DNA from: Vreelandella sulfidaeris
GTDB taxonomy: Bacteria; Pseudomonadota; Gammaproteobacteria; Pseudomonadales; Halomonadaceae
Assembly: GCA_007182875.1 (NCBI GenBank)
Contig: AP019514.1
Span: forward strand, 372,001 to 436,000
Direction of reading: 5' to 3'
DNA length: 64,000 nt
The notes under the pieces were generated by a model, which had not been told where the DNA came from, searched no databases, and worked only from the letters and a program-made list of their open reading frames with translations. Positions 43,850 to 59,636 of this stretch are shown piece after piece. The position numbers and the translations under genes were made by a program. The first letter of the stretch is position 1. Each line of letters opens with the position of its first letter.

Positions 43850-43881
43850 AGTGTAAAACCTATGGGTAACCCATAGGTCAA
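43850..43881 (-). promoter_or_regulatory. MerR-type promoter/operator with 20-bp spacer
   Basis: On the minus strand -35 TTGACC (43881-43876), then 20 bases, then -10 TACACT (43855-43850). A perfect dyad ACCTATGGG-TAA-CCCATAGGT (43858-43878) fills the spacer. The overlong spacer with a central palindrome is the known architecture of MerR/CueR-activated promoters, and it points to the merR-copA operon. Confidence 0.82.
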
Positions 43882-43933: not shown

Positions 43934-43985
43934 TAAAACGACCGTGCGACTAATGTATAAGGTAAAAATGAAATAAAACGACCGT
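43934..43985 (+). promoter_or_regulatory. Pair of direct repeats TAAAACGACCGT upstream of the FadL-like gene
   Basis: The 12-mer occurs at 43934-43945 and 43974-43985, exactly 40 bases apart, about four helical turns. A possible -10 TATAAG lies between the copies. The rest of 43882-44087 contains no gene. Confidence 0.5.
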
Positions 43986-44087
43986 TTGCCCTTGAACCTT
44001 TGGCGCCGTTGAGAGAAAACAGTCATGTAGAAAATAACGAGGGTGGATCGACGGTATCCACCGGATCATCGGGAAGAGAGGCCCACT

Positions 44088-45454
44088 ATGAATAATAAAT
44101 TTAATAAGCTCACCCTGGCTGCTGCCATCACAGCCGCCTTCGCCAGCCAAGCCCACGCGGGCGGGTACCAAATCAATGAGCAGAGCGTGAGTGGGCAGGG
44201 CTACGGCCATGCAGGACGCAGCTCGAACATTCATGATGCAACGATTGTGTATGGCAACCCAGCGGGTATGTCGTTTCTAGATCGTGCGCAAATTACGGCG
44301 GGTGGTACTTATTTAAACGTTAATAGTGACATTAGTAATGTCAGCTCTTCCCGCTCCGGGGCTCTTGTTGATACAGATGCAGGGGGTAATGTTACTGGCG
44401 TCATACCTTTCAGTGGTTCAGTTTCTGGTTCTAATGACGGTGATATGGTTCCAGGTACGCTTATTCCTTTTGCCTTCTATGCGCACCCAGTGAATGAACA
44501 GCTAGCATTTGGCTTCGGTGTGTATGCGCCGTTCGGTTCAAAAACTGATTACGAAGACAGTTTCCAAGGCCGTAATCAAGGAAATTACACCGAAGTGAAG
44601 GTAATGACGGCTCAGCCAACCGTTTCTTATCGCTTTACCGAACAGTGGTCGGTTGGCGCAGGTGTTACTTATAATCGCGTAGAAGGTGAGCTTCATCGAC
44701 AGGTTCCGGTTTCAGTGCCCGGTAATCCTTTAATGGATCCTATGGTAACTGAAGTAGATTCAAGGGGTTGAGGGGGGACGATGAGGCTTGGGGCTATAAC
44801 TTGGGGGTGATTTACCAGCCGGTACCTGAAACAACACTAGGTTTAACTTATCGCTCAAAAGTGGATTTCAATCTGGAAGGCGGTTTTACAGCGAGCTCGC
44901 CGGTGTTAGATCAACTGGGAGTCGGTACGGTAACGGATACTGCCGCATTAGATTTAACCACACCTGAAACGGTCAATTTCTCTTTAACGCAGCAGATGAC
45001 CGATAATCTCAAGCTTATGTTTGGTGCGTCTTGGGCGCGATGGAGTCAATTCGACCAGATTCTGGTGACCGGCAGCGATCGGCCTTTAATTACCGATGAG
45101 CAGCAGAACTATTCCAACGCGTGGGCGTTTTCTACTGGTGGTGAATATCAGCTAACTCCGCAGTTGGCTCTACGGGCAGGGGTAGCGCTGGATTTTACTC
45201 CGACTCAAGACTCTACACGCAGCGTGCGTATACCGTCAGATGATCGCCGCATTTTTTCCATTGGCGCGGGTTGGAGCCCCACACCCGATCTAACATTGGA
45301 TGTAGCTTACTCTTACTTGACCGAACGTAGCACTCAGGTGAATCAAACTAAAACTGATGATCTTCTTGGGACTGGGCCTATCACTTCAAACTACTCAGCC
45401 GACTACAAAAATGAAGCCCATGGCTTTGGCGCGCAGCTAACCTATCGGTTCTAA
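44088..45454 (+). CDS. FadL/TodX-type outer membrane porin, frame broken
   Basis: About 455 residues. Signal peptide LTLAAAITAAFASQAHA; mature N-terminus GGYQINEQSVSGQGYGHAGRSS and YGNPAGMSFL, the hatch signature of the FadL family. GTLIPFAFYAHPVNEQLAFGFGVYAPFG, SYRFTEQWSVGAGVTYN and the end FGAQLTYRF with terminal Phe are typical beta-barrel elements. Carries hydrophobic compounds such as long-chain fatty acids across the outer membrane. The frame breaks near 44763-44783, where two G runs appear too long (SRG* instead of SRVEGDDEAW). Confidence 0.92.
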
Positions 45455-58297: not shown

Positions 58298-59636
58298 ATG
58301 TTTAGTTTCTTAAAACGTAAAAAAAAGCACGATTCTCAGGAAAAGCCACAAGATCAGCGGGACCCTAACGATTTACCTAGCTCTCCGGAAGAGGCGCCCA
58401 CAGTTGAGCCTACGAGGCCTGAAGTGGAGCCCGAGCCTACTAAGCCTGAAGTAGAGCCCGAACCTACTAAGCCCGAAGTGGAGCCCGAACCTACTAAGCC
58501 TGAAGTAGAGCCCGAGCCCGTTAAGCCCGAAGTGGAGCCCGAACCTACTAAGCCTGAGGTGGAGCCCGAGCCCGTTAAGCCCGAAGTGGAGCCCGAACCT
58601 ACTAAGCCTGAAGTAGAGCCCGAGCCTACGAAGCCCGAAGTAGAGCCAGAGCCCGTTAAGCCTCAAGAAAAACCAGTGGCTGAAAAGGGGTGAGCAGAAA
58701 GGCTGGTTTGCGCGTATCAAATCAGGCCTTGGGAAAACCCGCGCTAATCTCACCGACGGTATCGCCGATCTGTTTTTAGGTAAAAAGCAGATTGATGATG
58801 AGCTGCTGGAAGATCTGGAAACGCAGCTATTATTAGCCGATGTCGGTATTGAGGCGACTACCGAGATTATCGGGCGCTTGGAAGCGCGCGTCTCGCGCAA
58901 AGAGCTAAACAACCCCGAAGCGCTCTACCGTGGTCTGCAAGAAGAGTTATCCACAATGCTGGCACCGGTTGCCAAGCCGCTTGTGCTTGAGAAGGCAGGC
59001 ACAGGTCCGTTTGTCATTTTAGTCGTCGGTGTTAACGGTGTGGGCAAGACGACCACCATTGGCAAACTCACCCAGCGCTTTCAGCGTGAGGGCAAAAGCG
59101 TCATGTTGGCTGCCGGTGATACCTTCCGTGCGGCGGCTGTAGAGCAGCTCAAAGTATGGGGTGAACGTAATCGCGTGCCGGTGATTGCCCAGCACACCGG
59201 CGCTGATAGTGCATCAGTCATTTACGATGCGGTCGCGGCTGCCAAGGCGCGTGGTGTTGATGTGCTAATTGCCGACACCGCCGGGCGGCTGCATAACAAA
59301 AGCCACCTGATGGAAGAGTTGAAAAAGTCCATCGCGTGATGCAAAAGCTAGATGACACAGCGCCTCATGAAGTCATGCTTGTGCTGGATGCGGGCACCGG
59401 ACAAAACGCTATTTCCCAAGCCAGCACTTTTAATGACGCTGTGCCGGTCAGCGGGATTACGCTGACCAAGCTAGACGGTACTGCCAAAGGCGGCATTATT
59501 TTGCGCTCGCTAAACAGCTGGAAACCCCCATTCGCTTTATCGGCGTGGGGAGGGCATCGACGATCTACGCCCCTTCGAGGCCAATGATTTTGTCCACGCA
59601 TTATTTGACCGCCAAGGGGACGATGCTAGCGCATGA
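58298..59636 (+). CDS. ftsY: SRP receptor GTPase FtsY, frame broken
   Basis: Membrane-associated receptor of SRP. Basic N-terminus [10 protein letters not shown], then a Pro/Glu-rich acidic A domain made of nine 9-residue repeats (58412-58654), then the N and G domains: [35 protein letters not shown] (G1), [24 protein letters not shown] and [10 protein letters not shown]. Breaks near 58690 (KG then stop), near 59325-59335, and near 59508. The end is [20 protein letters not shown]. Ends in ATGA overlap with ftsE. Confidence 0.95.
58412..58654 (+). repeat. 27-bp tandem repeat (nine copies) in ftsY
   Basis: Nine head-to-tail copies of a 27-base unit coding (T/V)(K/R)PEVEPEP; copies differ only at silent or Thr/Val positions. 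A candidate VNTR inside the acidic domain. Confidence 0.95.

Follow-up and report, generated by a model that had tools for sequence, protein, structure and literature searches.

The 12-bp repeat in front of the fadL-type porin gene is most likely, as judged from sequence comparison, a pair of docking sites for the known fatty-acid sensor PsrA, standing before a gene of fatty-acid uptake. Between the two sites lies a third conserved element that resembles the ACTU motif of the response regulator CrbR/ErdR, and the fadL promoter may be read as a place where two regulators act together. The features discussed below are collected in Table 1; by the window we mean the whole stretch of 64,000 nucleotides that was analysed.

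Table 1. Predicted elements of the fadL promoter region (window coordinates) and the psrA gene (genome coordinates)
Feature	Position	Strand	Description
12-mer copies TAAAACGACCGT	43934-43945 and 43974-43985		Exactly 40 bp apart
Distal half-operator (predicted) TAAAACGACCGTGC	43934..43947	+	40 bp upstream of the proximal operator
ACTU-like box TGCGACTAATGTATAAG, candidate CrbR/ErdR site	43945..43961	+	3-base overlap with the end of the distal half-operator
Proximal PsrA-type operator (predicted) TAAAACGACCGTTTG	43974..43988	+	Palindrome AAACGACCGTTT at 43976-43987
Candidate -35 hexamer TTGAAC	43992..43997	+	4 bp after the proximal palindrome
Candidate -10 element GAAAAC	44015..44020	+	17 bp after the -35 hexamer; weak by sigma-70 standards
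fadL-type outer-membrane porin	44088..45454	+	ORFs 44088-44771 and 44768-45454, frame broken near 44768
PsrA ortholog	G000:C1:2284929-2285549		TetR family

The repeat pair and the porin gene

The initial annotation had described two identical 12-bp sequences 40 bp apart before a FadL-like porin, and both the positions and the porin profile matches bear this out. Pfam Toluene_X/FadL is found in both halves of the porin (E 5e-47 and 2e-63), and the best NCBIfam family of the halves is FadL, with scores far under the cut-off (85 and 99 of 585 bits). Frames are broken in this assembly (completeness 74.6) in fadL, a MerR gene, acs, actP and other genes; these frame losses suggest sequencing errors.

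A search for further copies of the 12-mer, proposed as a check, returned none: the whole-genome count of exact TAAAACGACCGT is two in 4,480,770 bases (4.48 Mb), both of them here. The pair had also been called unlikely to arise by chance. It is indeed unusual, but not decisive alone, because resampling the window 20 times with a first-order Markov model gave, on average, 0.35 (maximum 2) exact direct repeats that were 12 bases or longer and lay within 100 bp, and the real window holds 28 listed repeats of this class, 24 of them in one block at 58.4-58.7 kb. The spacing of 40 bp corresponds to 3.8 turns at 10.5 bp per turn and not to the four helical turns first assigned to it.

Apart from the fadL region, positions 58421-58660 of the window are densely filled with direct repeats of GAGCCCGAACCTACTAAGCC and its variants, with a period of 27/54 bases, and probably represent a repetitive protein segment.

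Conservation of both sites among fadL promoters

Relatives were collected by scanning named genomes with the first part of the porin, and the best 80 of 295 loci were kept: 73 that belong to Halomonadaceae by their titles (L037-L109) and seven from Pseudomonas (L110-L116). Together with the window this gives 74 Halomonadaceae promoters; since their fadL loci are kin, the promoter fractions given here and below are not independent trials. To count as a proximal site, a sequence had to match AAACGNNCGTTT with no more than one mismatch, keep both AAAC and GTTT unchanged and have TTGA after it. By this rule the proximal palindrome AAAC(G)NN(C)GTTT is present in 73/74 promoters, with a perfect AAACGNNCGTTT in 68, and the sole miss is a Cobetia locus (L106); with the TTGA rule removed, the site was again found in the same 73/74. 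The distal half-palindrome AAACNNNCGT stands exactly 40 bp upstream of the proximal site in 49/73 promoters and is missing or decayed in 24/73 (Salinicola, Chromohalobacter, several Billgrantia and others), and a full palindrome at the distal site occurs in 0/73.

In the window itself the second copy of the repeat lies inside the palindrome AAACGACCGTTT, and the first copy is not palindromic (AAACGACCGTGC). Whole 12-mers are identical between the copies in 5/73 promoters, and the inner two bases agree in 7 of the 49 promoters that have motifs spaced by 40 bp. Mean conservation over 60 non-redundant promoters reaches 0.99 at the defined positions of the proximal site, against a background of 0.41-0.57, and 0.79 at those of the distal site, against 0.44 in the upstream background; it is 0.87 in the box between the copies and falls to 0.53 and 0.43 at the NN positions. 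To our reading such a profile is that of protein-binding sites and not of a recent duplication. The literal 12-mer is ruled out as the functional unit by its identity in so few promoters; on the same reading the identity between the copies is incidental, and what is conserved is a palindrome with a weaker half-palindrome.

That rarity of literal identity among relatives would suit a chance repeat without function. The presence of the proximal motif in nearly every promoter, the fixed spacing across the family and a conservation well above that of the flanks refute this explanation, however, and we give it practically no probability. Cooperative binding had been suggested at first, and an equal cooperative pair is weakened as well: it is unlikely because the distal palindrome is complete in no promoter and even the half-palindrome is absent from 24. 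Conservation before orthologous porin genes had been named in the initial annotation as the point on which its proposal could fall. Within Halomonadaceae the two sites are conserved, but both elements are absent from 7/7 Pseudomonas fadL relatives, and the identity of the 12-mers is not kept.

Match of the proximal core to PsrA operators

Published PsrA operators follow the pattern (G/C)AAAC-N2-4-GTTT(G/C) (PMC13104628, PMC5722320 and PMC3510223, all in excerpt). The proximal site, AAAC-GACC-GTTTG, fits the published core and the right-flank G, whereas its left flank is A and not G/C. A matrix built from 12 psrA-promoter sites alone, run over about 335 positions per promoter, gives the proximal fadL site the top rank in 59/73 promoters and rank 3 or better in 73/73; with 200 column-shuffled matrices the mean number of promoters in which it came first was 0.19 (maximum 24). 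With the same psrA-site matrix the distal site is first in no promoter and among the top ten in 55/72. The earlier statement that the repeats do not match PsrA sites was therefore wrong, at least for the core, since the proximal site both matches the published core and is found by the psrA-promoter matrix. Its more general idea of a fatty-acid-linked element is very probable, but calling the regulator unknown was probably unwarranted, given a PsrA-type core and a psrA gene in the genome. Genome-wide searches with at most one mismatch gave no enrichment over the reversed control, neither for TAAAACGACCGT (21 versus 71) nor for AAACGNNCGTTT (173 per strand versus 189).

The inner CG..CG of the fadL sites, perfect in 68/73 promoters, is missing from the psrA-promoter sites, which mostly read AAACACYTGTTT, and because of this difference a second TetR regulator is possible: a different protein of the family, with the motif AAACGNNCGTTT, would then bind the pair instead of PsrA. 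We consider this quite unlikely, as the matrix made from psrA sites only does find the proximal fadL site, inner bases vary among published PsrA sites (PMC3510223, excerpt), and several of the other palindrome sites precede genes of fatty-acid oxidation.

The psrA gene and other candidate PsrA targets

The PsrA ortholog carries PF17939 (TetR_C_30) at 98 bits. Its best solved match is 2fbq (E 3e-64), which covers nearly the whole length with a near-identical helix-turn-helix, and NCBIfam PsrA is its best family (229 bits, under the cut-off of 300). The gene is flanked by lexA and by a glycosidase read as nagZ, the neighbourhood of psrA in Pseudomonas. In 12/13 genomes of the genus its own promoter has AAACN4GTTT, lying 24-29 bp upstream of the start codon; outside the genus the site is found in 3/4 cases, with the start codon assumed.

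Exact AAACGNNCGTTT occurs at seven places in the genome, one inside a sensor-kinase frame and six in gaps beside genes: fadL, ftsZ-lpxC, etfD-etfBA, maeB-priA, an acyl-CoA dehydrogenase and a hexR-like gene (names read from translations). The palindrome before etfBA/etfD is present in 8/8 loci of the genus with a recognised divergent etfD and in one further locus in which no divergent etfD was recognised, among 22 loci examined of 35 matches. It precedes the acyl-CoA dehydrogenase in 4/5 genus genomes that have the gene and maeB (malic enzyme; L012, G000:C1:3365500) in 11/13, with an inner base altered in two of these. Its occurrence is patchy at ftsZ-lpxC (L010, 1501-1512; G000:C1:1581987), with five exact sites and one variant in 13 genus genomes, and likewise before the hexR-like gene (L014, G000:C1:4116408; 5/13). 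Outside the genus AAACN4GTTT is mostly missing from these places (maeB 0/6, acyl-CoA dehydrogenase 0/4, lpxC 1/6). Sites before etf and the acyl-CoA dehydrogenase are what one would expect of a regulon for fatty-acid degradation; for lpxC, maeB and hexR the fit is less plain.

An ACTU-like box between the copies

In P. fluorescens the ACTU motif, an imperfect inverted repeat, is needed for activation of acs by CrbR (PMC5715377, excerpt). The box CGACYAAWGTATKAG stands at a fixed distance from the proximal fadL site, with ACYAAWG in 70/73 promoters. We scored ACTU matrices over about 568 positions per promoter. The matrix of five ACTU sequences (Table 4 of PMC5715377, excerpt) puts the box first in 49/73 promoters and among the top three in 70, but two of these five sequences are predictions only and resemble the box; alone they place it first in 68/73. 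The five-site matrix, which leans on them, was withdrawn as independent proof. When the matrix is restricted to the three P. fluorescens sites that have experimental support, the box is first in 1/73 promoters, among the top three in 41 and among the top ten in 68, and it ranks fourth in the window. A further matrix was made from the acs boxes of the genus and uses neither fadL promoters nor the sequences of PMC5715377; it puts the box first in 42/73 promoters, among the top three in 64/73, and first in the window.

The acs boxes themselves are regular within the genus: ACCAAKGTCTAA precedes acs in 13/13 genomes (12/12 relatives and this genome). Outside the genus the pattern was present in 2/8 acs loci examined, and a second acs-like group (10 loci with TIGR02188 matches under the cut-off) gave no clear ACTU box. 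The 700 bp upstream of the gene that precedes actP contain ACCAAAGTCTGG in 9/9 loci examined, and in all nine there is also another box, ACYAAAGTA, like that of fadL, continuing as GTAT in seven and GTAG in two. Genome-wide, with at most one mismatch, the box pattern CGACYAAWGTMTWA is not enriched (15 versus 19 in the reversed control).

A candidate protein for the box is encoded in the genome. The response regulator adjoining acs, here and in the relative G001, has RR_TF_ErdR as its best family (268 bits, cut-off 390). Next to this crbR-like gene in G001 lies a PAS/HisKA/HATPase/REC kinase, which is broken in this genome; its best NCBIfam match is NahK, under the cut-off. An N-terminal SLC5 part of the kinase was read by eye, and Pfam gave no such call. 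From its place and length we read this hybrid kinase as CrbS.

The acs promoter has repeats of its own. Upstream of acs (L219), ~75 bp before the ACTU-like box, stands another inverted repeat, AGACCTTGGTCTA, slightly altered forms of which precede acs in the relatives of the genus that were compared; in this genome AAACGTTTGTTT adjoins the box.

The fadL box might instead be part of a promoter, with GTATAA or the like as the -10 and the distal copy as the -35, or the site of another LuxR-type regulator. TATAAG/TATTAG does resemble a -10 hexamer with the distal motif where the -35 would lie, the right half is GTAT versus GTC in published ACTU sequences (PMC5715377, excerpt), and the matrix of the three supported sites prefers another position in 72/73 promoters. 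Speaking against it, conservation across the 60 promoters peaks at ACYAA and at an invariant G and is not confined to the hexamer, and boxes with a GTAT right half also stand upstream of the operon of actP in 7/9 loci (GTAG in the other two). We regard this alternative as somewhat doubtful, though it retains appreciable weight.

Promoter layout and proposed mechanism

TTGA follows the proximal site in 73/73 promoters, at offset 16 (62 promoters) or 17 (11 promoters); it was part of the site-picking rule, and the same 73 are found without it. At the position of the -10 element AAAAC is present in 52/73, AAAA in 11 more and other sequences in 10, and G occupies -14 in 66/73. Because the -10 element is weak and no sigma-70-type promoter was called at the candidate -35/-10 pair, the fadL start near 44027 is a position that we can only infer. 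Relative to it the centre of the proximal site would lie at ~-45, the box at ~-74 and the distal half-site at ~-85.

A separate promoter-like pair was noticed on the minus strand (43851-43881). It faces the MerR-type gene, broken here, of a copper cluster and consists of TTGACC...TTACAC with a 19-bp spacer around the inverted repeat ACCTATGGGTAACCCATAGGT, an arrangement typical of MerR/CueR promoters.

The pair is probably the part of the fadL promoter that serves PsrA as operator, with CrbR as a co-activator. A PsrA dimer would sit on the proximal palindrome just before the -35 element, and the distal half-operator 40 bp upstream would provide weak extra binding that helps to hold PsrA and may block CrbR. 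When long-chain fatty acids are lacking, PsrA would keep fadL low; a fatty acid or acyl ligand would release it. Phosphorylated CrbR at the ACTU-like box could then boost fadL transcription while the acetate system is active. That the proteins bind, that PsrA represses and does not activate, where transcription starts and what CrbR contributes are what we infer here. The PsrA part of the model is ordinary; the one for CrbR is newer and also weaker.

As PsrA activates rpoS, the main alternative on mechanism is that it activates fadL too, in a class-II-like position beside the -35 element, as with rpoS in Pseudomonas. The proximal palindrome abuts the conserved TTGA, a weak -10 would suit an activated promoter, and positive regulation of rpoS by PsrA is described (PMC13104628, excerpt). 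Yet the fatty-acid degradation genes fadBA5 and PA0506, with which fadL groups, are repressed by PsrA (PMC5722320, excerpt), and the start site of fadL used here is an estimate; we find activation unlikely and keep repression by PsrA as the preferred reading.

Discussion

The Pseudomonas PsrA operators (psrA, rpoS, fadBA5, PA0506) have in common with the system described here the AAAC-N4-GTTT core, a PsrA ortholog, a site of psrA at its own promoter and targets in fatty-acid degradation. Here, in contrast, the target is fadL, an imperfect second site stands 40 bp upstream and an ACTU-like box lies between the two. Other bacteria control this gene through a different protein. Shewanella fadL is assigned to FadR (PMC3223726, excerpt), and E. 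coli fadL has two FadR sites 8 bp apart, plus ArcA and CRP (PMC3460868, excerpt). By that excerpt the likeness to E. coli lies in two sites for a fatty-acid repressor and a global activator on one fadL promoter, while the proteins (FadR of the GntR family, ArcA, CRP) and the 8-bp distance of the sites are different.

The fadL box resembles the CrbR/ErdR ACTU sites of P. fluorescens acs and actP in its imperfect inverted repeat of the type GACYAAAGT..., and here too a LuxR-type response regulator is encoded, its crbR-like gene adjoining acs. The box differs in standing before fadL, in the right half and in matching the three experimentally supported sites only weakly. The position is different too: in P. 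fluorescens acs the motif spans -52 to -36, immediately upstream of the -35 (PMC5715377, excerpt), whereas here it would be centred further upstream, with the PsrA-type site in between. Among the papers examined in the open-licence literature we found no report of CrbR control over fadL, which is not proof of novelty; the excerpt of PMC12208996 mentions both CrbR and FadL, without a connection between them.

A broader proposal, which we put forward only tentatively, is that in Halomonadaceae CrbS/CrbR directly co-controls long-chain fatty-acid uptake, the box being locked to the PsrA operator and PsrA and CrbR competing with each other. The distal half-site would in this case be kept imperfect because it overlaps the CrbR box.

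A motif that had been labelled unknown now has a probable regulator and signal, both of them already known. Beyond fadL, the PsrA-type palindrome at ftsZ-lpxC could tie LPS synthesis to fatty-acid status. Bacteria of this group are of interest for polyhydroxyalkanoate production. A joint PsrA-CrbR promoter would be new, if confirmed, and the model predicts that two signals, long-chain fatty acids through PsrA and acetate through CrbR, would meet on one outer-membrane uptake gene.
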